DNA of 64,000 nt from Mesorhizobium sp. BR1-1-16 (GTDB lineage Bacteria; Pseudomonadota; Alphaproteobacteria; Rhizobiales; Kaistiaceae): NCBI RefSeq assembly GCF_020165495.1, contig NZ_JAIUIE010000007.1:1-64000 (forward strand). Reading direction: 5' to 3'. The position numbers were made by a program, and so were the translations under genes. Position 1 is the first letter of the stretch, and the number at the start of each line of letters is the position of its first letter. Shown in pieces: positions 39,806-62,729 of this stretch. Under the pieces are notes generated by a model that was not told the DNA's origin, searched no databases, and was given only the letters and a program-made list of their open reading frames with translations.

Positions 39806-40756
39806 CTACCGGCCCCAGACGACCGCATTCTCGTGGCGCTTGATGATGTGCTTCAGATTCTCGAAGGCGGTCGTGACATGCCCGGCGAAGCGCTCGGCCG
39901 CCGGCGAGCGCGGCGCGCCGACGCGTCGCAAAATGCCGAGTGAACGGTTTGGCTGCGGAATTTCGTAGGGCAGCACCGTCACGCGGTTTTCCTTGCGCTG
40001 CGCGAACACCACGGAGAAGGGCAACACCGCCAGTGCGTCGGTTTCGGCGAGGAAGTTGATGACGCTCATCAGCGAGCCGCCGGAATAGCGGATGTTGAGA
40101 TCCGACATGCCTATGCTCATCAGGATCATCTGGAGATCGGACATCAGCGGCGAGCCGGGAAGGGGAGCGACCCAGGGAAAGCTCGTCAGGTCGTGGGCGC
40201 GAAGGCGGCGATTGCGTAAGAGCGGATGATCAGGGCGGCAGGCGACGATGTTCCGGCCGGGCAGAATTTCCGTGAATTCGAAGCCGGGGCCAAGATCGAG
40301 CACGCCGATCGGAACGATCCCAAGGTCGATCTGATCACCCTGCAGCGCGCCGACCATCTCCGGCAAATTGAGATAGCTCTGCTGGATCGTGACTTCGGGC
40401 TCCAGATTTTGGAACTCGCCGATCATCCGGCTGATCATGGCATCCATGAAGAACGGCACGCCGCCGACCCGGACAATGCCCTTGGTGCCCTTCAAAAAGC
40501 CCTGCACGGCATCGCTGGCCTTGCGTGAGGCGGTGATGATCGTGCGGCCCTGCGCGGCGAGCTGTGCCCCGAGCGGCGTCGCCTGCATCGGGCGGCGGCC
40601 TTTCAGGAACAGCGGCTCGCCGACGCGCGCTTCGAGCATGGCTAGCGAGCGGCTGACGGCCGGCTGGGTCAGGCCCAGCATGGCCGCGCCTTCCGAAACC
40701 CCGCCAGCATCCAGCACGGCGGCGAGCTGCATCAGGTGGCGTTCATTCAGCTTCAT
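39806..40756 (-). CDS. LysR-family regulator of the aromatic cluster
   Basis: The 316-residue LysR protein has the N-terminal winged helix (MKLNERHLMQLAAVLDAGGVSEGAAMLGLTQPAVSRSLAMLEARVGEPLF) and a periplasmic-binding-like effector domain (about 90-300). It diverges from the first dioxygenase gene of the catabolic run 93 bp away, the classic arrangement for an activator of aromatic degradation. A T-N11-A dyad overlaps its own start codon, implying autoregulation. The inducer is unknown. Confidence 0.92.
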   Translation of the reverse strand: MKLNERHLMQLAAVLDAGGVSEGAAMLGLTQPAVSRSLAMLEARVGEPLFLKGRRPMQATPLGAQLAAQGRTIITASRKASDAVQGFLKGTKGIVRVGGVPFFMDAMISRMIGEFQNLEPEVTIQQSYLNLPEMVGALQGDQIDLGIVPIGVLDLGPGFEFTEILPGRNIVACRPDHPLLRNRRLRAHDLTSFPWVAPLPGSPLMSDLQMILMSIGMSDLNIRYSGGSLMSVINFLAETDALAVLPFSVVFAQRKENRVTVLPYEIPQPNRSLGILRRVGAPRSPAAERFAGHVTTAFENLKHIIKRHENAVVWGR

Positions 40757-40769
40757 AGCAAAATGCTAT
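40755..40769. promoter_or_regulatory. LysR-type T-N11-A dyad
   Basis: ATAGCA-AAA-TGCTAT is a perfect 15-bp dyad containing T-N11-A (T at 40756, A at 40768), the LysR-family core site. It overlaps the LysR start codon and is about 80 bp from the divergent dioxygenase start, fitting joint control. Confidence 0.6.
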
Positions 40770-40849
40770 ACAAGCCGCTGCACAACTCATCAAGCGCCGT
40801 CAGCAGCCGTGCTATCCCGATTAACAAGGGGAAGGGAGGCCCCGGCGGA

Positions 40850-41758
40850 ATGCACGGCCAGCATGACGGTCCGACGAGGGAGGAACTCCCCGGGGCGATT
40901 TCGGCACAGGCGGAGGAATTCTCGCGTCGTCTGACGGCTGCCGGGCAGACCCGTGTCGCTGCGGCGGCGCAGGCAACAGTCGATGGTCTGCACGCCCTCA
41001 TCGCCGAACTCCGTCCCTCGGGGGAGGAGTTCCGCCTGGCTATCGATTTCCTGACCGAAGTCGGCCATTACGCCGATGCCCGGCGGCAGGAATGGGTGTT
41101 GTTCGCCGATGTGCTCGGCGTGTCCTCGCTGATCGAGGACTTGAACAATCCGCGCCCTGCCGGGGCGACGCCCAACACGCTGGCGGGCCCGTTTTACCGC
41201 TCCGACGTTCCGGACATGGCACCGGGCGCCAACATATCGCGCGACCATAAGGGCGATCCCCTGGCCGTCGAGGGCAGGGTTCTCGCGCTCGATGGCTCAC
41301 CGGTCGCCGGCGCGCTGGTCGAGGTCTGGCAGGCCAACGCCGAAGGCCTCTACGAGAACCAGGAGCCGGATCGGCAGCCGGAATTCAATCTGCGCGGCCG
41401 TTTCCGGACCGACCCTCAGGGCAGGTTTCATTTCCTGACGGTCAAGCCCAAAGGCTATGCGCTGCCCTCGGACGGGCCGGTGGGCCAGTTGATGTCGGCG
41501 CTTGGCCTAGGCCTTGAACGTCCCGCCCACATTCATTTCCGCGTCTCGGGGGACGGTTTCGAGACGCTCACGACCCACATTTTCGACCGGTCGGACCCGG
41601 CGATCAACCGCGACGCGATTTTCGGGGTGAAGCCCGAACTCATGGCCGAGTTTCGTGCCCTGCCGCCAGCGGGCGGCAAGCGGAAATACGCGCTCGACCT
41701 CAATCTGGTGCTCTGCCCGGCGCGGCAGGGCGAAAACGAAACCTCTGGGAGGAGATGA
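40850..41758 (+). CDS. Intradiol ring-cleavage dioxygenase (hydroxyquinol/catechol 1,2-dioxygenase)
   Basis: The 302-residue non-heme Fe(III) enzyme cleaves catechol-type rings between the hydroxylated carbons. All four iron ligands are visible: Y116 (LAGPFYRSD), Y203 (KPKGYALPSDGP), H227 and H229 (RPAHIHFRV). An N-terminal helical dimerisation domain (about 10-100) and overall length match hydroxyquinol 1,2-dioxygenases. Start at MHGQHDG has GGGAGG upstream. With maleylacetate reductase three genes downstream, hydroxyquinol to maleylacetate is the likely step; catechol is an alternative. Confidence 0.9.
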   Translation: MHGQHDGPTREELPGAISAQAEEFSRRLTAAGQTRVAAAAQATVDGLHALIAELRPSGEEFRLAIDFLTEVGHYADARRQEWVLFADVLGVSSLIEDLNNPRPAGATPNTLAGPFYRSDVPDMAPGANISRDHKGDPLAVEGRVLALDGSPVAGALVEVWQANAEGLYENQEPDRQPEFNLRGRFRTDPQGRFHFLTVKPKGYALPSDGPVGQLMSALGLGLERPAHIHFRVSGDGFETLTTHIFDRSDPAINRDAIFGVKPELMAEFRALPPAGGKRKYALDLNLVLCPARQGENETSGRR

Positions 41759-41761
41759 CCG

Positions 41762-42721
41762 ATGGCCCGTGTAAGCGGCTACCACCATCTGACGATGTCG
41801 ACGGACGGCGCACAGGACGATTTCGACTTCTACACGAAGGCGCTCGGCCTGCATTCCGTGAAGCGCACGGTGCTCTTCGATGGCGTGATCCCCGTCTATC
41901 ACCTCTATTATGGCTCGCCGAACGGCGATGCCTCGACGATCATCACGACCTTTCCGTTCCGCAAGCCTGGCGTCTATGGCCGTCGCGGCACCAATCAGTC
42001 GCGGACAATCCTGCAGTCCATCCCTAAAGGCGCTGCGGATTTCTGGGTCGACCGGCTAAACGCACGCGGCATAGAGACGAAGAAAATCACCCGGTTCGGC
42101 GCCGACCGCGCCGCCTTTGCGCATCCCTCGGGCATCCTGCACGAGCTGGTCGAAAGCGACAGCGATCCGCGCGAGCCGATCACCAACACGGTTCAGGGCA
42201 TCGGCAAGGCGCATGGCATCAAGGGCATCTACGGCGCCTCCATCGCCGTGACCGACCGGACGGCGATGGACGACTTTCTGACCATCGCGCTACCGCTCAC
42301 CAAGGAGGCCGATACGCATGAGGGCCTCGTCTACCGCGTGCCTGACGAGACGGGCGCCAATCAGCGCGTCGAGGTAATCGTCGACCGCGAGAGCCCCCAG
42401 GGCACATGGACGCTGGCCGGCGGCACCATCCACCATCTCGCTCTCAACACCGGCAACGAAGAGAACCAGCTGAAGCTCCGCGCTCATATCGAAGGCCTCG
42501 GCTTTACCGATATTTCCGAGCAGAAGGACCGCAACTACTTCAAGTCCTGCTATGTCCGCTCGCCCGGCGGCGCGCTGTTCGAACTCGCCTGGACGACGCC
42601 GGAAGGCTGGGCCAAGGACGAACCGCCGGGTGCGATCGGCAAGACGCTGGTGTTCCCGCCGTGGTTCAAGGATCGCGAGGACGAACTGCGGGCCGGCCTG
42701 GAGCAGGCAGAGTTCGCATGA
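41762..42721 (+). CDS. VOC ring-cleaving dioxygenase-like protein (MhqO-like)
   Basis: A 319-residue protein with two VOC modules (about 5-145 and 150-290). Candidate Fe(II) ligands appear in SGYHHLTM, GTIHHLALNT and GGALFELAWTTPEGWA, and the tail GKTLVFPPWFKDREDEL is typical of MhqO/YdfO-type proteins, proposed hydroquinone-specific extradiol dioxygenases in Bacillus. It could cleave a hydroquinone or detoxify a quinone formed in the pathway. It follows the intradiol gene by 3 nt with GGAGGAG, and overlaps the hydrolase by 4 nt. Confidence 0.85.
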   Translation: MARVSGYHHLTMSTDGAQDDFDFYTKALGLHSVKRTVLFDGVIPVYHLYYGSPNGDASTIITTFPFRKPGVYGRRGTNQSRTILQSIPKGAADFWVDRLNARGIETKKITRFGADRAAFAHPSGILHELVESDSDPREPITNTVQGIGKAHGIKGIYGASIAVTDRTAMDDFLTIALPLTKEADTHEGLVYRVPDETGANQRVEVIVDRESPQGTWTLAGGTIHHLALNTGNEENQLKLRAHIEGLGFTDISEQKDRNYFKSCYVRSPGGALFELAWTTPEGWAKDEPPGAIGKTLVFPPWFKDREDELRAGLEQAEFA

Positions 42722-43377
42722 GCGCAGGCGGCGGTCCTTTGAGGCTCGGGTCCAGAGCTCCTGAAGCGAAGGCGATCTGCGTCTTCGTGCATGGCCGCGG
42801 CCAGACGCCGGAGGACATGCAGTCCCATGTGCTGGCGCGGCTTTCCGCGCCATCCGTGGCGTTTGTCCTGCCGCGTGCCCCGACGGGCGCGTGGTGGGAG
42901 GCGCGTGCGGTCGATCCGCTGACGCCGGTCGCAAGGGCCCAGCTCTCGTCGGCGCTCGATCATCTTGCCGCTGCGGTCGCCGCGGCGCGAGGTGAATTGC
43001 CGGGACTGCCGCTGCTACTCGCGGGTTTCTCGCAAGGCGCATGCCTCGCCATTGAGTATCTCTGCGCGGGATTGCCGCCGCCGGAGGCGCTGGCTGCCTT
43101 CACGGGCTGCCGCGTCGGCGTTCCCAGCGATGCTCGGGTCGAGGCTGTGCCGGCCGGCGTACCTGTCTATCTCTCGGGCGCCGATGCCGATCCCTGGATC
43201 CCTGTTTCCGCCTTTGCGGAGGCAGTGGGGACGCTCGGTCGGCGGGGCGCAAGCCTGCGGGCCGATCTCTTTCCTGGGCGCCCCCACGAGGTTTCGGATC
43301 CCGAGATCGCCATGCTGGGCGGGATGCTCGCGGACCTCGGCGCCGGACGCGGCCCACGCATGGAGGCGGCGCGATGA
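42718..43377 (+). CDS. Phospholipase/carboxylesterase-family hydrolase (MhqD-like)
   Basis: The 219-residue alpha/beta hydrolase has S105 in GFSQGA, Asp in LSGADADPWIP and His in PGRPHEVS, with the HGRGQTPEDM oxyanion region. Bacillus mhqD-type hydrolases are partnered with MhqO-type dioxygenases in quinone/catechol detoxification, the same pairing as here. The start codon overlaps the stop of the VOC gene (ATGA), and its end overlaps the maleylacetate reductase start, so all four genes are translationally coupled. Substrate not known. Confidence 0.85.
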   Translation: MSAGGGPLRLGSRAPEAKAICVFVHGRGQTPEDMQSHVLARLSAPSVAFVLPRAPTGAWWEARAVDPLTPVARAQLSSALDHLAAAVAAARGELPGLPLLLAGFSQGACLAIEYLCAGLPPPEALAAFTGCRVGVPSDARVEAVPAGVPVYLSGADADPWIPVSAFAEAVGTLGRRGASLRADLFPGRPHEVSDPEIAMLGGMLADLGAGRGPRMEAAR

Positions 43378-44438
43378 TGGATAATTTCGTCTTTCCGGGA
43401 CTAACGACGCGGGTTGTTTTCGGCTCTGGCACCCTTGCACGAGCGGGCGAAGAGGTCAGCCGGCTCGGTCATGAAAAGGCACTGGTGCTCTCGACACCGC
43501 ATCAAAAGGCAGATGCCGAGAAGCTGGCGGACAGTCTAGGCGGTCTCGCGGCCGGCGTCTTTGCCGATGCCACCATGCACACGCCGGTCGAGGTCACCGA
43601 AACGGCCGTCGAAGCGTTCCGCGTCAGCGGCGCCACGGCTGTCGTTAGCCTCGGCGGAGGATCGACAACCGGGCTCGGCAAGGCGATCGCGCTGCGCACC
43701 GGCGCGGACCAGGTCGTGATCCCGACAACCTATGCCGGCTCGGAGATGACCGACATCCTCGGCGAGACGGCCAATGGCGAGAAGACGACGCGCCGTTCGC
43801 CGGTTATTCGCCCGGAGACCGTGATCTACGACGTCGACCTGACGCTTTCGCTGCCGGTCGGGCTCACGGTCACGTCGGCGATGAACGCGATCGCTCATGC
43901 GATGGAGGCGTTCTACGCGCCGGATCGCAATCCGGTGATCTTGCTGATGATCAAGGATGCCATGTCGGCTTTTCGCGACGGCATCCCGAGGCTGATCGAG
44001 GATCCGCATGATCGGGCGGCCCGGACCAAGGCCCTCTATGCCGCCTGGTGCTGCTCGACGGCGCTCGGCTATGTCCAGATGGCGCTGCACCACAAGCTCG
44101 CGCATGTGTTTGGCGGCTCATTCGACAGGCCGCATGCCGAAACGCACGCGATCCTGCTGCCCTATACGGCGGCATTCAATGAGGTCGCGGTGCCGAAACT
44201 GCTTGCGCCGATTGCCGAGGCATTTGGTGGCGGATCGGCGGGCGGCGCGCTCTGGGATTTTGCGAATAGCGTGGGCTCGCCGCTGAGCCTCAAGGCCATC
44301 GGCATCAGCGAGGCGGATCTCGACCGGGCAACCGCGATCGCCGTCAAGAATGCCTACGCCAATCCAAGGCCTATCGACCCGGGATCAATCCGGGAACTTC
44401 TCCAGGCGGCGTGGGAGGGACGCCGCCCTGGCGGCTGA
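43374..44438 (+). CDS. Maleylacetate reductase
   Basis: The 354-residue iron-type alcohol dehydrogenase family enzyme reduces maleylacetate to 3-oxoadipate with NAD(P)H. FVFPGLTTRVVFGSGTL, SLGGGSTTGLGKAIAL, IPTTYAGSEMTDILGETANGEK and the LHHKLAHVFGGSFDRPHAETHAILLPY segment are characteristic of MacA/TfdF-type enzymes. Its presence argues strongly that the ring is opened to maleylacetate, as from hydroxyquinol or chlorocatechols. It is 27 nt before the first binding-protein gene. Confidence 0.93.
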   Translation: MMDNFVFPGLTTRVVFGSGTLARAGEEVSRLGHEKALVLSTPHQKADAEKLADSLGGLAAGVFADATMHTPVEVTETAVEAFRVSGATAVVSLGGGSTTGLGKAIALRTGADQVVIPTTYAGSEMTDILGETANGEKTTRRSPVIRPETVIYDVDLTLSLPVGLTVTSAMNAIAHAMEAFYAPDRNPVILLMIKDAMSAFRDGIPRLIEDPHDRAARTKALYAAWCCSTALGYVQMALHHKLAHVFGGSFDRPHAETHAILLPYTAAFNEVAVPKLLAPIAEAFGGGSAGGALWDFANSVGSPLSLKAIGISEADLDRATAIAVKNAYANPRPIDPGSIRELLQAAWEGRRPGG

Positions 44439-44465
44439 GAACAAACAAGAGGGAGGAGGGAAATC

Positions 44466-45740
44466 ATGCTGACAAGACGTAATCTGCTGAAGGGCTCGGC
44501 GGCGACAGGTCTGGCGCTGGCGACGGGAGGGCTTGCCGCGCCCGCGATCGCGCAGGGGGCCAAGATCAAGCTCGGCTATGTGTCGCCGCAGACCGGCCCG
44601 CTCGCCGGCTTTGCCGAAAGCGACGCCTATAACATCAAGGCTTTCCTTGCGTCGGAGGCTGGCAAGAACTTCGAAGTCATCGTCAAAGACAGCCAGTCCA
44701 ATCCGAACCGGGCCGCAGAAGTCGCCAAGAGCCTGATCGTCGACGACGAGATCAACCTGATGCTCGTCGGCTCGACGCCGGAGAACACCAATCCGGTAGC
44801 GACGACCTGCGAGGCGGAAGGCATTCCCGTCATCTCGACCATGGCGCCGTGGCAGCCCTGGTTCATCGGCCAGCAGGGCAATCCGGGCGACCCCGCCTCA
44901 TGGAAGCCGTTCAAATTCGCCTACCACTATTTCTGGGGTCTCGAGGACATCATCGCTGTCTACACAGCGATGTGGAAGCAGCTCGAGACCAACGGCAAGG
45001 TCGGCGGGCTCTTCCCGAACGATGCCGACGGCAATGCCTGGGGCGACCCCAAGAACGGCCTGAAGCCAGGGCTCGAAGCCGCAGGATTCACGCTGACCGA
45101 TCCTGGCCGCTACCAGAATCTCTCGGATGATTTCACCGCGCAGGTCAACGCGTTCAAGGCGGCCTATGCCGAGATCGTCACCGGTGTCGTGATCCCGCCG
45201 GACTTCACCACCTTCTGGAACCAGGCGCGCCAGCAGGGCTTCAAGCCCAAAGCCGTGACGGTCGCAAAGGCGATCCTGTTCCCGCAATCCGTCGAGACGC
45301 TCGGCGCTGCCGGCAACAATCTCTCCTCCGAAGTCTGGTGGTCCGCTTCGCATCCGTTCAAATCGACGCTGACGGGCCAGTCATCGGCTGAACTCGCCGC
45401 CGATTTCACGGCGAAGACCGGCCGTCCCTGGACGCAGCCGATCGGCTTTGTGCATTCGCTGTTCGAGGTCGCGGCCAATGTCATGGGTCGTGTTTCGGAC
45501 CCGGAGGATGCCGAGGCGATCGCTGAGGCCATCGCGGCCACCGACATGACGACCGTCGTCGGCAAGGTCGTGTGGAATGGCGCCGGTGTTCCGCCCTTCG
45601 CGGCGAAGAATGTCTGCAAGACGCCGCTCGTCGGCGGCCAGTGGCGGCAGAAGTCCGATGGCAGCTTCGATCTCGTGATCGTCGAGAACGGCACGGCGCC
45701 GGAGATCCCTGCGGCCGGCAAGATGGAAGCGCTTTCCTGA
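44466..45740 (+). CDS. Branched-chain-type ABC substrate-binding protein 1 (Tat signal)
   Basis: A 424-residue periplasmic binding protein with a twin-arginine signal (TRRNLLKGSAATGLALATGG, AxA cleavage near residue 30). The mature part is a Peripla_BP_6 fold: KIKLGYVSPQTGPLAGFAESD, VKDSQSNPNRAAEVAKSLI, FKFAYHYFWGLED. Members of this group often bind aromatic or other hydrophobic acids rather than leucine. It heads the first transporter set; a strong hairpin after its stop probably boosts its mRNA relative to the membrane genes. It is paralogous to the gene at 52729. Confidence 0.92.
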   Translation: MLTRRNLLKGSAATGLALATGGLAAPAIAQGAKIKLGYVSPQTGPLAGFAESDAYNIKAFLASEAGKNFEVIVKDSQSNPNRAAEVAKSLIVDDEINLMLVGSTPENTNPVATTCEAEGIPVISTMAPWQPWFIGQQGNPGDPASWKPFKFAYHYFWGLEDIIAVYTAMWKQLETNGKVGGLFPNDADGNAWGDPKNGLKPGLEAAGFTLTDPGRYQNLSDDFTAQVNAFKAAYAEIVTGVVIPPDFTTFWNQARQQGFKPKAVTVAKAILFPQSVETLGAAGNNLSSEVWWSASHPFKSTLTGQSSAELAADFTAKTGRPWTQPIGFVHSLFEVAANVMGRVSDPEDAEAIAEAIAATDMTTVVGKVVWNGAGVPPFAAKNVCKTPLVGGQWRQKSDGSFDLVIVENGTAPEIPAAGKMEALS

Positions 45741-45747
45741 CCCGATC

Positions 45748-45775
45748 ATGCGGACCGGTGAGGCCCGGTCCGCAT
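45748..45775 (+). other. Strong stem-loop after binding protein 1
   Basis: ATGCGGACCGG (45748-45758) pairs perfectly with its complement at 45765-45775 around TGAGGC. It lies 7 nt after the stop in the 63-bp gap before the ATPase gene, with no T-run: likely an mRNA-stabilising or partial-termination element. Confidence 0.7.
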
Positions 45776-45803
45776 TCCCCGCCTTTCGAGGAACACCACG
45801 ACA

Positions 45804-46520
45804 ATGATCCTGAGGCTTGAAAACGTCTCGAAGTCCTACGGCGCGCTGAAGGTTGCGGATTCCGTGACCTTCGACGTGCCGCGTGGCGAGGCGCTCGGCA
45901 TCATTGGGCCGAACGGCGCCGGTAAATCGACGCTGTTCAACCTCATCACCGGCAATGTGCTGGCCAATGCGGGGCGGATCGAATTCCTCGGCCGCGACGT
46001 CACGCGTGCGCCGGCCATGGAGCGGGTGCGCATGGGCGTCGGCCGCTCGTTCCAGATCCCGCAGCCCTTCGAAGGACTGACCGTATTCGAGAACCTCCTG
46101 ACCGCCGCGGCCTTTGGCCGGGGCCGTCGCGAGGCCGATATGGTTGACGATTGCGCGCGCATCCTGGAGGAGACCGAGCTTCTCCGAAAGGCGAATGTCG
46201 TGGCCGGCGCGCTCAGCCTTCTCGACCGCAAGCGGCTCGAACTTGCCCGCGCGCTGGCAACCGGGCCCGAACTGCTGCTGCTCGACGAGATCGCTGGTGG
46301 GCTCACGGATGGCGAGTGCAAGGCGCTGGTCGCGACAATCAAGGCCATCCATGCGCAGGGCACGACGATCATCTGGATCGAGCATGTGCTGCACGCCCTG
46401 ACCTCGGTCGTGGAGCGGCTGCTGGTGCTCGATTTTGGGCGCGTGATCGCGATCGGTTCGCCCGACGACATCATGGCCTCGAAAGAGGTTCGCGAGATCT
46501 ATCTGGGGCTCGAGGTTTGA
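45804..46520 (+). CDS. ABC transporter ATP-binding protein, LivG-like (set 1)
   Basis: The 238-residue ATPase has Walker A GPNGAGKSTLFN (about 35-46), LivG-specific GVGRSFQIPQPFEGLTVFENLL and Walker B LLLLDE (157-162) with H-loop IEHVLHAL. The signature motif is unusual: LSLLDRKRLELARAL instead of the standard LSGGQ. It pairs with the LivF-like protein encoded next, whose start overlaps this stop by 1 nt. Confidence 0.92.
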   Translation: MILRLENVSKSYGALKVADSVTFDVPRGEALGIIGPNGAGKSTLFNLITGNVLANAGRIEFLGRDVTRAPAMERVRMGVGRSFQIPQPFEGLTVFENLLTAAAFGRGRREADMVDDCARILEETELLRKANVVAGALSLLDRKRLELARALATGPELLLLDEIAGGLTDGECKALVATIKAIHAQGTTIIWIEHVLHALTSVVERLLVLDFGRVIAIGSPDDIMASKEVREIYLGLEV

Positions 46521-47224
46521 TGCTGCTCGAAACCCATAATCTCACCGCAAGCTACGGACAGTTCCGCGCGCTGTTCGGCGTCGACATCGCCGTCGACACT
46601 GGCGAATGCGTCGCGATCATCGGCGCAAACGGCGCCGGCAAGTCGACGCTGATGCGTTCGATCACGGGCATCATCCGCAACGAACCCGCCATGGTGCTGC
46701 ACTGGGGTGAGCCGATCGGGGCGCGGCCCTCGGCCGAGATCATGAAGCGTGGCATCGCCATGGTGCCGGAGGGTCGCCGGCTGTTTCCCTCGCTCTCCGT
46801 CGAGGAGAATCTTCTGATCGGCGGTCAGGCGCGGAAAGGCGACGGGCCGTGGAACCTCGAAGCCGTCTATGATCTCTTCCCGATCCTCCGCGAGCGGCGG
46901 AAGAATGCCGGCACGGCGCTTTCCGGCGGCCAGCAACAGATGGTGGCGATCGGCCGGGCGCTGATGTCGAACCCGGAATTGCTGCTCTGCGACGAGATCA
47001 GCCTCGGCCTCGCGCCCGTGGTTATCCGTGACATCTACGCTGCCTTGCCGAAGGTGCGCGCCGGAGGCACGGCGATCGTCGTGGTCGAGCAGGACATCGG
47101 CAAGGCGCTCGCCGTCGCGGACCGCGTCTATTGCATGATGGAAGGCCGCGTGACGCTTGTGGCCAAGCCGGCCGATGTGACGCGCCAGGACATTCATGCC
47201 GCCTATTTCGGAGAGGCGGCATGA
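46520..47224 (+). CDS. ABC transporter ATP-binding protein, LivF-like (set 1)
   Basis: A 234-residue ATPase with Walker A GANGAGKSTLMR, VPEGRRLFPSLSVEENL (LivF hallmark), an intact signature LSGGQQQMVAIGRAL and Walker B LLLCDEISLGLAP. It supplies the complete signature site of the LivG/LivF heterodimer. The 1-nt overlap with the LivG-like gene and a 4-nt overlap with the permease gene show translational coupling. Confidence 0.93.
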   Translation: MLLETHNLTASYGQFRALFGVDIAVDTGECVAIIGANGAGKSTLMRSITGIIRNEPAMVLHWGEPIGARPSAEIMKRGIAMVPEGRRLFPSLSVEENLLIGGQARKGDGPWNLEAVYDLFPILRERRKNAGTALSGGQQQMVAIGRALMSNPELLLCDEISLGLAPVVIRDIYAALPKVRAGGTAIVVVEQDIGKALAVADRVYCMMEGRVTLVAKPADVTRQDIHAAYFGEAA

Positions 47225-48084: not shown

Positions 48085-48092
48085 GGCGCGGC

Positions 48093-50896: not shown

Positions 50897-50905
50897 GGAA
50901 CGGCC

Positions 50906-52654: not shown

Positions 52655-52665
52655 CAGACGCGTCC

Positions 52666-52687: not shown

Positions 52688-52728
52688 GCTACCACAAGAA
52701 ACAATCCATCCAGAAGGAGGAGTCTCGG

Positions 52729-54036: not shown

Positions 54037-54062
54037 TGTGAGTGCGGGACGCGGGGGAAGTG

Positions 54063-55516: not shown

Positions 55517-56360
55517 CGCATTGGTGCAGGGCATCCTGCTGGGCGGCATGTATGCCCAATATGCGCTCGGCATGGCGCTGATGTTCGGCGTCATGCGGAT
55601 CGTCAATATCAGCCATGGCGATCTGGTGATCCTGCTGTCGCTGGTCGGCATATCGATGGCGTCCGCCTGGGGATGGGGACCGCTGCCCGTTCTCATCGCC
55701 CTGGTCCCGCTCGCCGTCCTGATGGGATGGGTTTTGCAGAAGACGGTGCTGAACAAGGTGGTCGGCAGCGACCCGCTGCCTTCGCTGATCGCGACATTCG
55801 GCCTCTCTGTGGCGCTGCAGAACCTGATGCTCCAGATCTGGTCGGCGAACAGTCGTTCGCTCCCGGGCGGCGGCATCGAGAGCCAGTCGATCGAGATCGG
55901 CGGCATCTATATCGGCCTCCTGCCGGTGATCGTGCTCATCGTAGCGACAGCGCTCACCTGGGGCCTCGACATCATGCTGAAGCGAACCCGTTTCGGCCGT
56001 GCGCTGCGCGCCGCTTCCGCCGATGTCGAGGCGGCAGCGATGACCGGCATCAATCCGCGAGCCATCTACGCGCTCGCAACCGCCGTCGCGGTCGGCATCC
56101 TCGGCTTCGCCGCCGTGTTCCAGGCGCTGCGGTCGACCGTCGCGCCAGCGGATGGCCCGGCGCAGCTGATCTACGCGTTCGAGGCGGTGATCATCGGCGG
56201 CATGGGCTCCGTGTGGGGTGCCTTCATTGGCTCGATGGTGCTCGGCATCTCGCAAGGCATCGGCTTTCGCATCGATCCCGGCTTTGGCGTCCTCGCCGGC
56301 CATATCGTCTTCCTGATCGTGCTGGCGACCCGCCCGCAGGGCCTGTTCGGAAGGGCATGA
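55503..56360 (+). CDS. ABC transporter permease, LivH-like (set 2)
   Basis: The 285-residue permease has DALVQGILLGGMYAQYALGMALMFGVMRIVNISHGD, LIATFGLSVALQNLMLQIW, GRALRAASADVEAAAMTGINPRAIYA and AVIIGGMGSVWGAFIGS, with about eight helices. I use the ATG at 55503 (MQWFDALVQG), inside the end of the ATPase gene; a near-cognate start four codons earlier is possible. Its stop overlaps the LivM-like start (ATGA). Confidence 0.91.
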   Translation: MQWFDALVQGILLGGMYAQYALGMALMFGVMRIVNISHGDLVILLSLVGISMASAWGWGPLPVLIALVPLAVLMGWVLQKTVLNKVVGSDPLPSLIATFGLSVALQNLMLQIWSANSRSLPGGGIESQSIEIGGIYIGLLPVIVLIVATALTWGLDIMLKRTRFGRALRAASADVEAAAMTGINPRAIYALATAVAVGILGFAAVFQALRSTVAPADGPAQLIYAFEAVIIGGMGSVWGAFIGSMVLGISQGIGFRIDPGFGVLAGHIVFLIVLATRPQGLFGRA

Positions 56361-57388
56361 CCATGACCGCAATCCCCTATGCCGACACCGAGGCGCCGGA
56401 CGTGCTGGTCGAGCGGCAATCGCGCTCGGGCCGCGTCGCCATGACGCTTGCGGTACTTGGACTGATCGGCCTCGCCGTCATGCCGTGGTGGGCATCGACC
56501 GGCACGATCCGCTCGGTGCTTGAGCTCTGCTGCTACATCGCGGTCGCGCAGATGTGGAACCTGCTTGCCGGCTATGCGGGCCTCGTCTCGGTCGGCCAGC
56601 AGGCCTTCATGGGCGCGGCCGGCTATGCGCTGTTCGTTCTGGCGCAGACCTACGGCATCAACCCGTTCGTGGCGATTTTCCTGTCGCTCCTGGTGCCGGC
56701 AGTGCTCGCCGTCCCGATCTACTTCCTGCTGCACCGCCTCGACGGTCCTTACTTTTCGATCGGAACCTGGGTGGTCGCGGAGGTCTTCCGCCTGACCGCG
56801 TCCAACATGCCGATCGTCAATTCGGGTGCTGGTATGTCGCTACGCGTGATGAAGGATTTCTCGTCCTTCGAGCGCAACGTCGCCATGTCGCTGCTCTGCG
56901 CCTTCATGCTGCTTGTGACGCTCGGCGGCAGCTATTGGCTGCTGCGCTCGCGCTTCGGCTTGGCGCTGATCGCGATGCGCGACAATCCGATCGCGGCGGC
57001 CAGCCAGGGCGTCAATGTCGCCAAGCTGCGCTTCCTCATCTATGTCGCCGCCGCCGTCGGCTGCGGTCTCGCCGGCTCGATCTACTTCATGGCGCAACTG
57101 CGCATCACCCCAGGCTCGGCCTTCGATCCGATGTGGGCGAATGTCGCGATCTTCATCGTCATGATCGGCGGCATCGGCTCGATCGAGGGCGTGCTGATCG
57201 GCTCGCTGATCTATTTCATCGCCGATCGCTGGTTCGGAGAATATGGCGCGACCTACTTCGTCGTGCTCGGTCTGATGACGCTGCTGGTGGCGCTCTATGC
57301 GCGAACCGGCATCTGGGGCCTCGTCTCGAAGCGATGGGACGCCCCGTGGTTCCCGATCCGCCGCAAGCTCGTCCATCGGAAACTCTGA
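56357..57388 (+). CDS. ABC transporter permease, LivM-like (set 2)
   Basis: A 343-residue permease with VAQMWNLLAGYAGLVSVGQQAFMGAAGY, LDGPYFSIGTWVVAEVFRL, LALIAMRDNPIAAASQGVNVAKLR and IGGIGSIEGVLIGS. About ten helices follow a roughly 28-residue cytoplasmic N-terminus. Two ATGs lie two codons apart; the first overlaps the LivH-like stop. It completes the second importer, 14 nt before the alcohol dehydrogenase. Confidence 0.91.
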   Translation: MTMTAIPYADTEAPDVLVERQSRSGRVAMTLAVLGLIGLAVMPWWASTGTIRSVLELCCYIAVAQMWNLLAGYAGLVSVGQQAFMGAAGYALFVLAQTYGINPFVAIFLSLLVPAVLAVPIYFLLHRLDGPYFSIGTWVVAEVFRLTASNMPIVNSGAGMSLRVMKDFSSFERNVAMSLLCAFMLLVTLGGSYWLLRSRFGLALIAMRDNPIAAASQGVNVAKLRFLIYVAAAVGCGLAGSIYFMAQLRITPGSAFDPMWANVAIFIVMIGGIGSIEGVLIGSLIYFIADRWFGEYGATYFVVLGLMTLLVALYARTGIWGLVSKRWDAPWFPIRRKLVHRKL

Positions 57389-57402
57389 GGGAGAAGGGCA
57401 CC

Positions 57403-58419
57403 ATGAAAGCGGCCATTTTCGAGGCAGTCGGCGCTCCGCTCAGGATCGGTACCGTCGCTGATCCAACGCCGGCACCGGACGAGGTTGTCATCCGCGTCGC
57501 CGCCTGCGGCATCTGCGGCAGCGATCTGCACATCACCGAAGACCCGATGCCGTTCGGCGTCGGAGCCGGCTTCGTGCTCGGTCACGAATTCGCGGGCACC
57601 ATCGTCGCGCTCGGCGCCGAGGTGACCGACTTTGCGATCGGCGACCGCGTTGCGGTGGTTCCGATGCGCGGTTGCGGCCATTGCGAGGCCTGCCGACGCG
57701 GCGATCCCGGACGCTGCGCCGAGATGTCCCTGATCGGCGGCGGCTATGCGGAATTCGTCGCCGTCGCAGCACGCCAATGTCACATCCTGCCCGACGACGT
57801 GGCGCTGGAGGATGGGGCGCTCGCCGAGCCGCTGTCGGTGGCGCTTCATTGCATCGTCCGCTCGGGCATGAAGCCCGGCGACCGCGTCGCCATTCTTGGC
57901 GCCGGGCCGATCGGGCTGCTCGTCGCCTTCTGGGCGCGGCGCATGGGGGCATCGCGCATCGTGGTCGCCGACATCCACGCACATCAGCGGGAGCGCGCTC
58001 TGGCGCTCGGCGCCACCGGCTTCGCGCTCTCGGGGAGCAATCTCACCGAAAACCTCGCGGAACTCTGCGAGGGCGCACCGGACATCGTCTTCGAATGCGT
58101 CGGCAAGCGCGGCCTGCTCGCGGCGGCGGTCGATGCCGTGCGCCTGCAGGGCACGGTCGTCGGCGTCGGGCTCTGCATCGGCGGCGACGAATGGGATCCG
58201 TTCGTGGCGCTCAGCAAGGAAGTGAGCCTGCTGTTCTCCGTCTTCTTCCATCAGCGCAACGAATTCGGCGTCGCGCTCGATGCGCTGCGCGGCGGCCCGT
58301 TCGCGCCGCAGGCGCTCATCACGGATCGCATCGACCTGTCGCCCGTCCCGCAGATTTTCGAGAGCCTTCGCCGCCGCACCACGCAATGCAAGGTGCTGAT
58401 CCAGCCAGAACTCGCTTGA
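57403..58419 (+). CDS. Zinc-dependent medium-chain alcohol dehydrogenase
   Basis: The 338-residue MDR enzyme has catalytic-zinc residues C35 (ACGICGSDLH) and H61-E62 (LGHEFAG), all four structural-zinc cysteines (C91, C94, C97, C105 in GCGHCEACRRGDPGRC), and the cofactor motif LGAGPIGLLVAFWARRMGA followed by ADIHAHQR, suggesting NAD(H). It resembles sorbitol/threonine-dehydrogenase-like enzymes. It probably oxidises an alcohol side chain of the substrate, or an intermediate; the context gives no more. Confidence 0.9.
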   Translation: MKAAIFEAVGAPLRIGTVADPTPAPDEVVIRVAACGICGSDLHITEDPMPFGVGAGFVLGHEFAGTIVALGAEVTDFAIGDRVAVVPMRGCGHCEACRRGDPGRCAEMSLIGGGYAEFVAVAARQCHILPDDVALEDGALAEPLSVALHCIVRSGMKPGDRVAILGAGPIGLLVAFWARRMGASRIVVADIHAHQRERALALGATGFALSGSNLTENLAELCEGAPDIVFECVGKRGLLAAAVDAVRLQGTVVGVGLCIGGDEWDPFVALSKEVSLLFSVFFHQRNEFGVALDALRGGPFAPQALITDRIDLSPVPQIFESLRRRTTQCKVLIQPELA

Positions 58420-58425
58420 GGAGCA

Positions 58426-59220
58426 ATGAAGATGACCGTGTCGTTCGAGACGCTGGAATATGATGTCGGCGGCGTGAAGACCGTGGTGAAGGCTGTCGGC
58501 AAGGGCAAGCCCGTGCTCTTCCTCCATGGTGCCTCGACGCTGGAAGGCTTTGACTTCGCCGAAGGTCTTGCCGACCGTTTCCGCATTCTGGCGGCGAGCC
58601 ATCCAGGCTTCGGCCATTCCGGCGATGCGCCACACATTGCCGGGATGTCCGACATGGTGCTGCATTACCTCAACCTTCTCGACGCGATGGATCTCGGCGA
58701 AAAGCCGCATCTCCTCGGCTTCTCCATGGGCGGATGGATGGCGATCGAGCTGGCGGCTATAGCCCGCGAGCGCTTCGACAAGGTGGTGCTCGTCGCACCG
58801 GCCGGCCTCAATGATCCCGCCCATCCGGCCACCAACCTCGGAGCTGTCGCCCCGCAGGAACTGCCAGCCTATCTGGCGCATGACGTTTCGGCAGCGCTTC
58901 GCTATTTCCCCGATGGGACTGACGCAGCTTTCGCGGAAGCCTTCGGCGCCGACCGCGCGCGCGAAGGGGCGACGCTCGGCCGTCTGCTGACACCCTTCGG
59001 CATGGGCCATCCGAACCTTCGCCGCTTCCTTGCGCGCATCACCAATCCCGCCCTGGTCGTCTGGGGCACTGAGGACCGCCTGTTGCCGGCGAGCCAGGCG
59101 CCGCTCTTCGTCGAGGCCCTGCCCGACGCAAGGCTGCTGCTGGTCGAGGATGCCGGCCATTTCGTCATGCAGGAAAAGCCCGAAACGCTGAACAGGATCG
59201 GCGATTTCCTCGCCGGCTGA
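58426..59220 (+). CDS. Alpha/beta-fold hydrolase (C-C hydrolase/esterase-like)
   Basis: The 264-residue hydrolase has S100 in LGFSMGGW, Asp in WGTEDRLLP and His in EDAGHFVMQEKPE, with oxyanion region FLHGAS. Its overall pattern is that of MhpC/BphD-like C-C bond hydrolases and simple esterases; these cannot be separated by eye. It might split an acyl or ester group from the aromatic substrate. An ATG two codons downstream has better ribosome-site spacing (GAGGAG). Confidence 0.88.
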   Translation: MKMTVSFETLEYDVGGVKTVVKAVGKGKPVLFLHGASTLEGFDFAEGLADRFRILAASHPGFGHSGDAPHIAGMSDMVLHYLNLLDAMDLGEKPHLLGFSMGGWMAIELAAIARERFDKVVLVAPAGLNDPAHPATNLGAVAPQELPAYLAHDVSAALRYFPDGTDAAFAEAFGADRAREGATLGRLLTPFGMGHPNLRRFLARITNPALVVWGTEDRLLPASQAPLFVEALPDARLLLVEDAGHFVMQEKPETLNRIGDFLAG

Positions 59221-59245
59221 ACGTGATTCAAGGAGGAGAACCATC

Positions 59246-60466
59246 ATGAACAAGCCCATCAAGCACAGCTATTGGGGCAGCACGATCGACTATCGCGACA
59301 TGCTGAAGAAGATCGAGGAAATCGGCCCGATCCTCGAAGCTAATGCCGATGCCGACGAGAAGAACGGCGAGCTGACGGCTGAGAGCTTCGAGGCGCTGAA
59401 GCCGTTGCGCATGTCGCATGTGCTGGCGACCGAAGCGCTTGGCGGCGCGCAGTTGCCCCCCACGCAGGTCCTCGAACTGCTGCAGGCGATCACCTGGCAT
59501 TCGGGTTCGGCGGGTTGGGTTTCGATGGTGCATGCCTGCATCGGCGCCATGTCCGCCGCCTTCCTGCCGGACAGCGCCGTCGAACGGCTGTTCGGGCCGG
59601 GGACGGACAACCGTTTCTCGGGGCAGGGCGCGCCGCTCGGCATGCTGAAGAAGGTCGAGGGCGGCTACAGCCTGACCGGCAAATGGAGCTATGGCAGCGG
59701 GTTTAGCCATGCCACCTATTCACACAGCGCCGCCTTCGTCGATGACGGCACCGGCAAGCCGGCCAAGGACGAAAAGGGCAACGTCATCGTGATGTGCGCC
59801 CACGCGCCCATTCCCGAGCACAAGCAGCTCGGCAATTGGGACGTGCTCGGCCTTGGCGGCACCGGCAGCATTGACTATGCGGCCGAGAATGTCTTCATCC
59901 CCGACGATCTCGTGTTCCCGATCCTGACCGCGCCGCCGCAGCGGCTGAAGGAACTGTTCAGCCTCGGCGTCGTGGGCCTCGCCGCCATCGGCCATACCGG
60001 CTGGGCGCTCGGCACCGCGCGGCGCATGCTGGACGAGATTGCCAAATTCGCGCGCTCCAAATCCGGCCGCGCCGGCCTGATCGGCGAGAGCGAGAAGTTC
60101 TGGTATGATTATGGTCGCGCCGAAGCTCGCTACCGCGCCGCCCGCGCCTTCGTGTTCGAGACATGGAGCGACATCGAAGCGACCGTCGAGGCCGGGAACA
60201 GCGTTTCGACGCGGCAGATCAGCCTCGTCCATCTGGCAAAGTCAGAAATCCACGAGGCGGGCGTCGAGATCTGCAACTTCGCCTATCGTGCCGGCGGCGG
60301 CGCCTCGCTTCGCGCCGGGGTGATCCAGCGCACCTTCCGCGAGATGATGGTGGCGGCCAACCACTTCACCATCGCGCCGTCGATCGTCACCTCGGCCGGC
60401 CGCGATCTTGGCGGCCTGTGGGGCGGGCGCGTGTGGCAGTTCTACGACCTGATCGAAAAGAAGTAG
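59246..60466 (+). CDS. Two-component flavin monooxygenase, oxygenase subunit (acyl-CoA-dehydrogenase fold)
   Basis: The 406-residue protein belongs to the group D flavin monooxygenases (HsaA, HpaH-C2 and GraD type). EALGGAQLPPTQVLELLQAITWHSGSAGWV, a beta domain with GGYSLTGKWSYGSGFSHATY, and a helical C-terminus with FAYRAGGGASLRAGVIQRTFREMMVAANHFTIAPSI are typical; it lacks the catalytic base context of true acyl-CoA dehydrogenases. It takes reduced flavin from the reductase encoded next. GraD of Rhizobium hydroxylates resorcinol to hydroxyquinol, which would fit this cluster. Confidence 0.88.
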   Translation: MNKPIKHSYWGSTIDYRDMLKKIEEIGPILEANADADEKNGELTAESFEALKPLRMSHVLATEALGGAQLPPTQVLELLQAITWHSGSAGWVSMVHACIGAMSAAFLPDSAVERLFGPGTDNRFSGQGAPLGMLKKVEGGYSLTGKWSYGSGFSHATYSHSAAFVDDGTGKPAKDEKGNVIVMCAHAPIPEHKQLGNWDVLGLGGTGSIDYAAENVFIPDDLVFPILTAPPQRLKELFSLGVVGLAAIGHTGWALGTARRMLDEIAKFARSKSGRAGLIGESEKFWYDYGRAEARYRAARAFVFETWSDIEATVEAGNSVSTRQISLVHLAKSEIHEAGVEICNFAYRAGGGASLRAGVIQRTFREMMVAANHFTIAPSIVTSAGRDLGGLWGGRVWQFYDLIEKK

Positions 60467-60474
60467 TCTTGAAG

Positions 60475-60503
60475 GGGCCGGGCGCGACGGTCCGGCCCTT
60501 TTT
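60475..60503 (+). terminator. Intrinsic terminator/attenuator between oxygenase and reductase genes
   Basis: GGGCCGG (60475-60481) pairs perfectly with CCGGCCC (60492-60498) around a 10-nt loop and is followed at once by TTTTT. It lies 8 nt after the oxygenase stop and 19 nt before the reductase ATG, so it either ends the operon or sets a low reductase level. Confidence 0.85.
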
Positions 60504-60522
60504 CGCCGTAGAAGGTAGATCG

Positions 60523-61071
60523 ATGAGCCATCCGAACCCGATGACAGCCGCCTTTCGCGAGGCCTTTCGCCGCCATCCGGCCGGCGTTGCCGTGATCACA
60601 GCCGATCCGGGCGACCGGCCGGTGGCGATGACCGTATCCTCGCTGATCTCGGTCAGCGCGGCGCCGCCGATCGTCGCCTTCTCGCTTTCGACGAAGTCCG
60701 CATCTTCAGAGCCTTTGTTAAGAGCGGAGACGATGGTGATCCATCTTTTGCGCTACACGGATATCGATCTCGCACAGCTCTGCGCGTCGAGCGGTGCCAA
60801 CCGCTTCGGGCCAGACGTCGCCTGGCAGCGGCTGCCCTCCGGCGAGCCGCGCTATACCAGCGTCGCGACCTGGTTCCGGGCCCGCCGCCTCGGCCTCTTG
60901 CCCATCGAGGGCGCGACTCTCGTCGCGGCGGAGTTGCTGGAAGGGGAGGCGCATCCGATGGAAGATCCACCGGAGGCGCACTCGCTGGTTTATCTCGACC
61001 GGCGCTGGCACCGCCTGCATAAGGAACTCGATGACGCGGTCAATCTCGTCGATTCCTCGCGGTTCATGTAA
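60523..61071 (+). CDS. Flavin reductase (two-component monooxygenase partner)
   Basis: A 182-residue protein of the flavin-reductase-like FMN-binding family: FREAFRRHPAGVAVITAD, RPVAMTVSSLISVSAAPPIVAFSL, and HSLVYLDRRWHRL near the end. It makes FADH2 or FMNH2 with NAD(P)H for the preceding oxygenase. It lies beyond a strong intrinsic terminator, with only 19 nt between the T-run and its ATG, so expression needs read-through or an internal promoter. Length is normal (160-185). Confidence 0.9.
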   Translation: MSHPNPMTAAFREAFRRHPAGVAVITADPGDRPVAMTVSSLISVSAAPPIVAFSLSTKSASSEPLLRAETMVIHLLRYTDIDLAQLCASSGANRFGPDVAWQRLPSGEPRYTSVATWFRARRLGLLPIEGATLVAAELLEGEAHPMEDPPEAHSLVYLDRRWHRLHKELDDAVNLVDSSRFM

Positions 61072-61106
61072 GCCGCCCTTTTCTCAACGCGACGACGGAC
61101 CACCGC

Positions 61107-62729
61107 ATGACCTCTACCCGTCAGCCCGCCGATTTCGGCACGTTCGATGTCGTGATCGTGGGGGCTGGATCAGCCGGGTGCGTCCTCGCCAATCGTCTCT
61201 CCGCCGATCCGGGGCGAAGGGTGCTCCTGATCGAGGCCGGCAAGAGCGACAATCACCCGTGGGTGCATATTCCGGTCGGCTATCTGTTCGCCATCGGCAA
61301 TCCACGCCTCGATTGGGGGTTCAAGACCGAGCCCGTGCCCGGCCTCAACGGCCGCAGCCTGCTCTATCCGCGCGGTAAGGTGCTCGGCGGCTGCTCATCG
61401 ATCAACGGCATGATCTATATGCGTGGGCAGGCGCAGGACTATGATGGCTGGCGCGATGCCGGCAATCCCGGCTGGGGCTGGTCCGACGTGCTGCCCCTCT
61501 TTCGCCGGTCCGAGCATCATTTCGGCGCCGCCGACGAGGCGCATGGGACGACCGGCGAATTGCGCGTCGAGCCGCAGCGCCTCCGCTGGGCAATCCTCGA
61601 CGAGGTCGCGAAGGCCGCCGAGGCCATGGGCATTCCGAGGGCGCGGGATTTCAACGCCGGCGACAATGAAGGGGTCGGCTATTTCCCGGTCAACCAGAAG
61701 CGCGGCATCCGCTGGAACGCCCGCAAGGCCTTCCTCGATCCCGCCCGTCGAAGGCCCAATCTGGCGATCCTGACGGAATGCCATGTCCAGCGTCTCTGTC
61801 TCGACGGCCGCCGGGTCACGGGCGTCGTGTTCTCGCGCGGCGACAGCCTGTTCGAGGCGAAGGCCCGGCAGGACGTCGTGCTGTCGGCTGGCGCGATCGG
61901 ATCGCCGCAAATCCTGGAACTGTCAGGCATCGGCAGGCCCGACATTCTCAAGCGCATCGGCATCCCGCTCGTCCATGCGCTGCCCGGCGTCGGAGAAAAC
62001 CTGCAGGACCACCTGCAGATCCGCACCATCTTTTCGGTCACCGGCGCGAAGACCTTGAACGACCGCGCCGCGACGCTGCATGGCAAAGCGGGCATCGCGC
62101 TTCAATACGCGCTGACTCAGAGCGGCCCGATGGCCATGGCGCCGAGCCAGCTCGGCATCTTCACGCGCAGCGGACCGGCGCATAACCGCGCCAATATCGA
62201 ATATCACGTCCAGCCGCTGTCGCTGGACGCGTTCGGCCAGCCCCTGCATCGGACGCCGGCGCTCACGGTTTCGGTCTGTAACTTGCGCCCCGCCAGCCGC
62301 GGATCGAGCCATGCGGCGAGCGCCGATCCGCAGGCCGCGCCGTCAATCCAGCCGAACTACCTTTCCACCGAGGCGGACCGTATCGTCGCCGCCGACAGCA
62401 TTCGTCATGCGCGCCGCCTGATGACTCAGTCGCCGCTCGCGCCCTATCGTCCGGTGGAGATCAGGCCAGGACCAGGACCCGAGGATGACGACGCTCTGGC
62501 GCGGCTGGCCGGCGAGATCGGAACCACGATTTTCCATCCGGTGGGCACAGCGAAGATGGGCAGCGACGCGGACGCCGTCGTCGATGGGGATCTGAAGGTG
62601 CGTGGCCTGGACGGCCTCCGCATCGCCGATTGCTCGATCATGCCGACCATCGTCTCAGGCAATACGCACGCGCCGGCCGTGATGATCGGCGAGAGAGCAG
62701 CTGAGCGCATCGCCGCGGCATCTCACTGA
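61107..62729 (+). CDS. GMC-family FAD oxidoreductase (choline-dehydrogenase-like)
   Basis: The 540-residue enzyme has the FAD motif VIVGAGSAGCVLANRLS, GMC signature 1 (YPRGKVLGGCSSINGMIYMRG), signature 2-like GAIGSPQILELSGIG, and C-terminal HPVGTAKMG and NTHAPAVMIGERAA, carrying the catalytic His-Asn pair. GMC enzymes oxidise alcohols to aldehydes. It is often annotated choline dehydrogenase, but there are no betaine genes here, so an alcohol in the aromatic substrate or its linker is more likely. It is last in the same-strand run. Confidence 0.9.
   Translation: MTSTRQPADFGTFDVVIVGAGSAGCVLANRLSADPGRRVLLIEAGKSDNHPWVHIPVGYLFAIGNPRLDWGFKTEPVPGLNGRSLLYPRGKVLGGCSSINGMIYMRGQAQDYDGWRDAGNPGWGWSDVLPLFRRSEHHFGAADEAHGTTGELRVEPQRLRWAILDEVAKAAEAMGIPRARDFNAGDNEGVGYFPVNQKRGIRWNARKAFLDPARRRPNLAILTECHVQRLCLDGRRVTGVVFSRGDSLFEAKARQDVVLSAGAIGSPQILELSGIGRPDILKRIGIPLVHALPGVGENLQDHLQIRTIFSVTGAKTLNDRAATLHGKAGIALQYALTQSGPMAMAPSQLGIFTRSGPAHNRANIEYHVQPLSLDAFGQPLHRTPALTVSVCNLRPASRGSSHAASADPQAAPSIQPNYLSTEADRIVAADSIRHARRLMTQSPLAPYRPVEIRPGPGPEDDDALARLAGEIGTTIFHPVGTAKMGSDADAVVDGDLKVRGLDGLRIADCSIMPTIVSGNTHAPAVMIGERAAERIAAASH

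Follow-up and report, generated by a model that had tools for sequence, protein, structure and literature searches.

Several described systems resemble parts of a gene block that we analysed in a 64,000-nucleotide stretch of the genome of Mesorhizobium sp. BR1-1-16, placed in the Kaistiaceae (contig NZ_JAIUIE010000007.1, positions 1 to 64,000; hereafter the window). The cph cluster of Arthrobacter chlorophenolicus A6, which handles 4-chlorophenol by way of hydroquinone and hydroxyquinol, shares with the block a CphC-II-type FAD-dependent phenol hydroxylase (FMO), two hydroxyquinol dioxygenases (CHQ1 and CHQ2) and a maleylacetate reductase (MAR), whereas the Kaistiaceae block has a PcpA-like dioxygenase and two Liv importers in addition, and the 17.7 kb of the cph region that we read hold neither Liv importer genes nor a short-chain dehydrogenase/reductase (SDR) or alcohol dehydrogenase (ADH) gene. 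The gra cluster for gamma-resorcylate and resorcinol, on plasmid pRL12 of Rhizobium johnstonii 3841, likewise has a hydroxyquinol-type dioxygenase, a MAR and a two-component flavin oxygenase, but an MFS transporter where the block has Liv importers. MhqO/MhqD of Bacillus and Paenibacillus, and PcpA/LinE, offer a VOC-family dioxygenase adjoining an alpha/beta hydrolase, as in the block (PMC12673573, in excerpt); here, in contrast, the pair sits inside an operon with MAR and importers. The HsaABCD system of steroid degradation has HsaA-, HsaB- and HsaD-like families in common with the downstream part of the block. The 4-hydroxyacetophenone (hap) pathway of Pseudomonas fluorescens ACB differs in that neither a classical Baeyer-Villiger enzyme nor a two-subunit hydroquinone dioxygenase was matched among the 20 block genes searched against families, the candidate oxygenase here being of the ACAD type. 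The logic proposed for hap is nevertheless alike, with a ketone side chain removed to give hydroquinone, followed by ring opening and maleylacetate (PMC3727088, in excerpt).

On balance, we think that the block probably forms a LysR-controlled modular catabolic operon, with two kinds of phenol being imported and one hydroquinone/hydroxyquinol route shared between them. Its lower pathway is of a known kind. In the literature searched, we recognized no paper with the combination proposed here, namely two Liv importers, PcpA-type and intradiol ring opening in parallel, and a replaceable side-chain unit; a root-exudate study, as far as its excerpt goes, names other aromatic genes (PMC8581550).

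Gene content and modular organization

The block consists of one LysR-type regulator gene (39806-40756, minus strand) and 22 plus-strand genes (40850-62729), whose 21 junctions measure between -14 and +74 bp; nine are overlaps, and one further junction is only 3 bp. It holds two intradiol dioxygenases, a VOC dioxygenase, two hydrolases (hyd1 and hyd2), a MAR, the FAD phenol hydroxylase, an ACAD-type oxygenase with a flavin reductase (FRed), an SDR, a Zn-dependent ADH, a GMC oxidoreductase and two importer sets, each made up of a periplasmic binding protein (SBP), LivG, LivF, LivH and LivM. An earlier note, made from the letters of the window alone, had described a LysR gene with 22 same-strand genes separated by gaps of at most 74 bp and often overlapping, and had listed these enzymes and two Liv-type importers; the layout matches, and the list was borne out by family searches, with NCBIfam run on 20 of the 23 genes and Pfam on 15. 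The ATPases LivF1, LivG2 and LivF2 were assigned by 57% paralogue identity and annotated relatives.

We compared gene order across 52 named loci with the ACAD gene, 16 FMO loci from genomes without a close ACAD relative, and plasmid loci. The order of the block, or of parts of it, recurs in dozens of genomes, and the block is therefore not a chance grouping. Carriers include Kaistia, Mesorhizobium, Rhizobium, Shinella, Martelella, Paracoccus and relatives, on chromosomes and plasmids alike, a recurrence which makes it probable that the block is a phenol outlet of importance in soil, rhizosphere and marine alphaproteobacteria. Within Kaistia, 10 of 14 genomes (the window's own included) carry the ACAD gene, and four named genomes have relatives of it at 89-95%. 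The plasmid search counted close strains and paralogues together, and we do not treat its counts as frequencies. Two plasmid records, Martelella lutilitoris NZ_CP066788.1 (246197) and 'Dysgonomonadaceae bacterium zrk40' CP070278.1 (246192), are almost equal in length and gave identical match scores, so one of them is probably misassigned.

Three units can be told apart in these comparisons. Module A comprises MAR (43374-44438), SBP1 (44466-45740), LivG1 (45804-46520), LivF1 (46520-47224), LivH1 (47221-48084), LivM1 (48081-49142, TTG start) and FMO (49142-50896), plus a CHQ gene (CHQ1, 40850-41758; CHQ2, 50906-51796). Module B is the PcpA-like VOC dioxygenase (41762-42721) with hyd1 (42718-43377). 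Module C runs from SDR (51836-52654) through SBP2 (52729-54036), LivG2 (54042-54791), LivF2 (54788-55516), LivH2 (55503-56360), LivM2 (56357-57388) and ADH (57403-58419), which together form part C1, to hyd2 (58426-59220), ACAD (59246-60466) and FRed (60523-61071), which form part C2. The units recur in three arrangements, namely a fused Kaistia/Mesorhizobium form, a Martelella/Paracoccus/rhodobacter form and a Rhizobium/Shinella form. No module C accompanies module A in Rhizobium leguminosarum WSM1325 (locus L007), in R. johnstonii 3841 (L070) or in any of the 16 FMO loci read; these 16, from the 19 FMO genomes without ACAD, all have relatives of MAR, SBP1 and Liv genes, and all except L090 have a CHQ2 relative. 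The VOC gene and hyd1 lie beside CHQ1 in L076 and L077 and take its place next to MAR in L081 and L084, and hyd1 adjoins VOC wherever the latter fell inside the stretch read.

Co-occurrence was counted in an order sample of 297 genomes with cut-offs of E <= 1e-140 for ACAD, 1e-100 for VOC and 1e-240 for FMO. ACAD was found in 8 genomes, VOC in 15 and FMO in 27, as nested sets at these cut-offs, so that VOC and FMO accompany ACAD in 8 of 8 genomes (Fisher p 0.003 for VOC given ACAD, relatedness being ignored), while 19 of the 27 FMO genomes have no close ACAD relative and seven of those 19 contain VOC. The distance between ACAD and FMO is 9.5-10.1 kb in all eight, and VOC lies at most 10.6 kb from FMO on the same contig in 14 of 15 genomes, the two being on different contigs in genome G288. 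Among the 52 named ACAD loci, FMO was found within 10 kb in 41 and beyond that flank in 10; it was not found in the remaining one of the 52, from a fragmented metagenome-assembled genome (MAG). One of the 10, L055 (Rhizobium sp. RCAM05350), gives just a partial FMO match over residues 99-458, and its SDR, LivG2 and LivM2 genes are each in two pieces, reflecting either decay or poor sequence. VOC was searched for in 26 of the 52 module C genomes and found in 24, in one case at only 41%.

These patterns bear on how many substrates the block serves. The earlier note had proposed a single complex phenol processed from start to finish by both modules, a view that agrees with the Kaistia layout, in which the genes follow one another without interruption on one strand under a single regulator, and with the presence of FMO in the genomes of 51 of the 52 module C loci. 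A single substrate is not required, however, given two different importers, the many genomes with FMO but no ACAD, and C1 loci in genomes without FMO or VOC matches (two of three, see below); in addition, 13 of the 52 loci have their own XylR-type regulator beside module C. We therefore consider one shared substrate very unlikely. The same note's view of two joined modules, each with its importer, is supported by gene order in the related genomes, and two related, converging substrates fit better.

The importers themselves are complete, each set holding the binding protein, two ATPases and two permeases of a Liv/HAAT system. Both binding proteins belong to Peripla_BP_6; SBP1 has a Tat signal (structure model pLDDT 80) and SBP2 (pLDDT 85) is 43% identical to it. 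NCBIfam placed LivG1 with UrtD/LivG-type ATPases, below cut-offs, LivH1 and LivH2 with UrtB/LivH-type permeases, LivM1 with LivM/UrtC-type and LivM2 with UrtC/LivM-type permeases; LivG2 is 57% identical to LivG1, and LivF1 and LivF2, likewise 57% identical to each other, have relatives annotated as ABC ATP-binding proteins. As importer subunits and other paralogue pairs within the block are just 41-57% identical, the two importers are old paralogues and no product of recent duplication. The proposed operon would tie these two uncharacterized binding proteins to defined aromatic ligands.

Ring cleavage and the proposed lower pathway

The solved structures nearest to CHQ2 are hydroxyquinol-type dioxygenases (8r2x, 3n9t PnpC and 1tmx). 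In this comparison, which covered CHQ2 alone of the two intradiol enzymes, 6-chlorohydroxyquinol dioxygenase (8r2x, 4e-97) and hydroxyquinol dioxygenase (1tmx, 6e-73) scored far ahead of the best catechol dioxygenase (3e-43). CHQ2 used as query against its own genome matched just the window's two intradiol genes, and CHQ1, with Pfam Dioxygenase_N/C domains, is 49% identical to it. The Martelella-type locus has a single CHQ, which shares 77% identity with the one encoded next to the gamma-resorcylate decarboxylase gene on pRL12 of R. johnstonii, which makes hydroxyquinol the probable ring-cleavage substrate. The VOC dioxygenase is of the PcpA/LinE/MhqO type (hydroquinone 1,2-cleavage), matching PcpA (4huz, E 9e-63) better than MhqO (3oaj, E 7e-40), and hyd1 is MhqD-like by family (Pfam Abhydrolase_2, 34 bits) and position. 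MAR belongs to the Fe-ADH family, shares its operon with CHQ1 and CHQ2, and has relatives annotated as maleylacetate reductase; an mhqO-annotated dioxygenase gene also adjoins a maleylacetate reductase gene in Agrobacterium sp. B1, according to the excerpt of PMC12673573. FMO has 2-hydroxybiphenyl 3-monooxygenase as its best solved match (4cy6 HbpA, E 1e-179) and falls among the single-component hydroxylases of the HbpA/TfdB/CphC-II group, with 56% identity to TfdB of JMP134 among the matches listed (60 of 139). The catalytic motifs expected for CHQ1 (Tyr/Tyr/His/His), the VOC enzyme (a His-His-Glu metal site at H8/H9, H224/H225 and E274), the SDR (YxxxK and a glycine motif) and hyd2 (GxSxG, WGxxD and GH) were all found, and we assume that they carry their usual functional meaning.

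Beyond gene content, families, conservation and modularity, which the sequence comparisons show, homology leads us to infer the following lower pathway. SBP1/LivGFHM1 would import a simple phenol, which FMO would hydroxylate to hydroxyquinol, the likeliest last step being hydroquinone to hydroxyquinol. CHQ1 and CHQ2 would convert hydroxyquinol to maleylacetate and MAR would reduce this to 3-oxoadipate, while the PcpA-like dioxygenase and hyd1 may provide a second, hydroquinone-opening branch whose product would enter at maleylacetate/MAR. Since the operon also encodes a PcpA-like hydroquinone dioxygenase, the routes more likely converge at hydroquinone. A pcaF gene scored above its curated cut-off on another contig of the same genome, so 3-oxoadipate can probably be finished by enzymes encoded elsewhere. 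Paracoccus versutus has pcaF and CoA-transferase genes close to its module A, from which an arylsulfatase gene separates them. This arylsulfatase gene and one for a formylglycine-generating enzyme directly follow module A on plasmid pTAV3 (L072, 17016-19681), which suggests sulfated phenols as a source.

The likeness to cph raises the possibility of halophenol catabolism, in which a chlorophenol would pass through (chloro)hydroquinone and hydroxyquinol to maleylacetate. FMO is 54.7% identical to the gene at the CphC-II position, CHQ2 49%, CHQ1 37-38% and MAR 36% identical to their cph counterparts; the PcpA-like VOC enzyme and the closeness of CHQ2 to 6-chlorohydroxyquinol dioxygenase point the same way, as does the second hydroxyquinol dioxygenase of cph, described in the excerpt of a mutational study of cph in 4-chlorophenol growth through hydroquinone and hydroxyquinol, in which CphC-II is called a putative monooxygenase (PMC3975901). 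Yet the SDR, ADH, hyd2 and second importer would then be superfluous, and the block is conserved, chromosomally or on plasmids, across numerous natural genera of soil and sea. Nor did we see in the block a counterpart of CphC-I, the other cph oxygenase, which is presumably of a different, HpaB type. A halophenol pathway is thus highly improbable.

Resorcinol or gamma-resorcylate, handled by a gra-like pathway with an added importer and with ACAD and FRed as resorcinol hydroxylase, has more in its favour, as the enzyme classes are those of gra clusters and MAR and CHQ2 are 55% and 56% identical to the R. johnstonii gra-type enzymes. The similarity does not extend to the oxygenase pair, as ACAD shares only 26% identity across 215 aa with the gra-type oxygenase of pRL12 and is not of the GraDA type, and FRed is no closer to the gra-type reductase (26% across 143 aa). 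In addition, no gamma-resorcylate decarboxylase was present among the 20 family-searched genes, the remaining three being ATPases. Moreover, R. johnstonii 3841 has a separate gra cluster on the module A plasmid, about 123 kb away, and therefore already possesses a probable resorcinol route. Salicylate raises genes that resemble the gra cluster by product order 2- to 6-fold, with P > 0.1 in two of the four, in the excerpt of PMC4136779. We regard this explanation as unlikely; of the resorcinol/hydroxyquinol route put forward in the earlier note, the hydroxyquinol part is upheld by the dioxygenases and MAR, while the resorcinol part is weakened by the gra cluster of R. johnstonii and the distant ACAD.

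The proposed side-chain unit

The operon as we read it would use module C for a second, related phenol. Its ACAD-fold group D flavin oxygenase is nearest to Rv3094c (E 2e-30), followed by hydroxylases including HsaA (3-HSA hydroxylase 2rfq, E 2e-19), FRed has a Pfam Flavin_Reduct domain, and hyd2 is nearest to HsaD-type hydrolases (5jz9 HsaD, E 7.5e-18), PcaD and esterases; the SDR belongs to Pfam adh_short_C2 and the ADH has ADH_N and ADH_zinc_N domains. SBP2/LivGFHM2 would import a phenol bearing an oxygenated side chain, the SDR and ADH (perhaps with the GMC oxidoreductase) would oxidize the chain to a ketone, and the ACAD oxygenase, FRed and hyd2 would remove it, leaving a hydroquinone or hydroxyquinol for modules A and B to take up. 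We infer this side-chain step and the hydroquinone entry solely from co-occurrence. Side-chain removal by the hydrolases and dehydrogenases, as the earlier note had it, is plausible for module C, whereas hyd1, positioned with VOC, is a less likely side-chain enzyme.

The same families could instead point to HsaABCD-like meta-cleavage, in which ACAD/FRed would hydroxylate the phenol, VOC would open the ring and hyd2 would split a C-C bond of the product. Besides the resemblance of ACAD, FRed and hyd2 to HsaA, HsaB and HsaD, the frequent company of VOC and module C would be explained. All three nevertheless score far under the NCBIfam cut-offs (95 of 450, 38 of 230 and 77 of 400 bits, respectively), and no HsaC-type dioxygenase was recognized in the block, the VOC enzyme being PcpA-type and adjoining hyd1 rather than hyd2. 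VOC also occurs in FMO genomes without ACAD, and hyd2-ACAD occurs in L042 and L045, the two genomes of the 26 searched in which no VOC was found. Meta-cleavage of this kind is accordingly an improbable role for module C.

Module C can be split. Four rhodobacteral loci have C1 without adjacent C2, one on a Pseudosulfitobacter plasmid (L071) and three (L104-L106) in genomes from the order of L039, a Rhodobacteraceae MAG; a close SBP2 was found in 4 of 244 genomes of that order, the fourth being L039 with the usual module C. In all four loci without C2, a cupin gene and a XylR-type regulator gene accompany C1. The one cupin tested, that of L071, matched 2,4'-dihydroxyacetophenone dioxygenase (E 3e-19), with the H-x-H pair and third His of both cupin motifs aligned. 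This dioxygenase converts an aryl hydroxyketone to 4-hydroxybenzoate and formate. Its two cupin motifs are given in the excerpt of PMC4219425. FMO and VOC had no match in two of the three C1 and cupin genomes searched. With a cupin replacing C2 and with these genomes lacking FMO/VOC matches, C1 looks like a unit for uptake plus side-chain oxidation and C2, by association, like an alternative cleavage step leading its product to the hydroxyquinol trunk, which lends some help to the side-chain proposal. A 35% relative of the L071 cupin is also encoded on the window's contig, outside the window (G000:C27:115039-115407).

A bolder version, which we put forward as a doubtful possibility, is that module C is an undescribed system for uptake and side-chain cleavage, in which the ACAD-fold two-component flavin oxygenase and an alpha/beta hydrolase remove a hydroxyaryl ketone chain without a classical Baeyer-Villiger enzyme, one operon thereby joining two imported phenols with parallel PcpA-type and intradiol openings. 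The way in which modules are exchanged suggests substrates that can be tested and hints at what may be a new flavoenzyme for side-chain cleavage.

Several observations weigh against the two-phenol operon and its side-chain step. Because L042 and L045 hold hyd2-ACAD without adjacent C1 (SDR, SBP2, Liv2 and ADH), C2 need not serve the substrate of C1. The cupin family is broad, an uncharacterized cupin scoring 3e-17 with that of L071, and the third C1 and cupin genome searched, G504, has both FMO and VOC. Among the 20 family-searched genes, neither a Baeyer-Villiger enzyme nor a 4-hydroxymuconic semialdehyde dehydrogenase was recognized. The best 50 Foldseek matches listed for each binding protein mix leucine, urea and aromatic binders at 12-19% identity, with pyroglutamate binders also among them, and a profile search separated the ligand classes no better. 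The nesting of ACAD, VOC and FMO depends on the cut-offs, as L088, scored VOC-negative, has a 40% VOC relative beside FMO, and the counts ignore phylogeny, with Kaistia, Mesorhizobium and Rhizobium dominating, so that the co-occurrence P values overstate independence.

Regulation and minor features

The regulator has Pfam HTH_1 and LysR_substrate domains, and its best NCBIfam match is PcaQ at 104 bits, below the cut-off of 304. The LysR-CHQ1 gap holds a perfect inverted repeat of T-N11-A form, ATAGCA-AAA-TGCTAT (40754-40770, plus strand), which all 10 aligned gaps preserve with at most two changes; two other stretches that were retrieved contained no LysR gene and were set aside. The pattern occurs once in the window at up to two mismatches, and the repeat is a probable LysR operator. 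The XylR-type activator genes of the 13 distinct loci lie divergently upstream of SDR, five being confirmed by Pfam, and none was found beside SDR in the fused Kaistia/Mesorhizobium-form loci, suggesting that module C came under control of the LysR promoter through the fusion. A loose pattern for sigma-54 promoters upstream of SDR gave single hits in three loci, none of them with XylR, and was dropped; scans of 40700-60600 for sigma-70 promoters and terminators stayed at chance level (1 vs 2.3 and 10 vs 11.0).

The intergenic gap between the oxygenase and reductase genes (60467-60522, plus strand) contains a hairpin (60475-60493), found in 38 of 38 loci whose gap is at least 30 bp (the window, L008-L031, L034-L043, L054, L056 and L058), the other 15 of 53 having a shorter, overlapping or undetermined gap. 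Two-sided changes occur at three of its 10 pairs among 17 Kaistia/Mesorhizobium-type sequences. We rejected a terminator and prefer an intercistronic stability or attenuation element, since only three of the 38 hairpins (the window, L016 and L025) precede at least 5 T. Counting against such an element, the z-scores of single sequences span -5.1 to +0.7, with weak values in some gapped loci such as L018 (-0.6) and L043 (-0.3).

The last gene of the block, for the GMC oxidoreductase (61107-62729, plus strand), is peripheral, with relatives of at least 60% identity inside the flanks of 11 of the 52 loci. The block is bordered by two minus-strand frames (39057-39782 and 62756-63547, read by eye only). 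Outside it, positions 32001-34000 show an AT skew of 0.238, the top value of the window in 2-kb steps.

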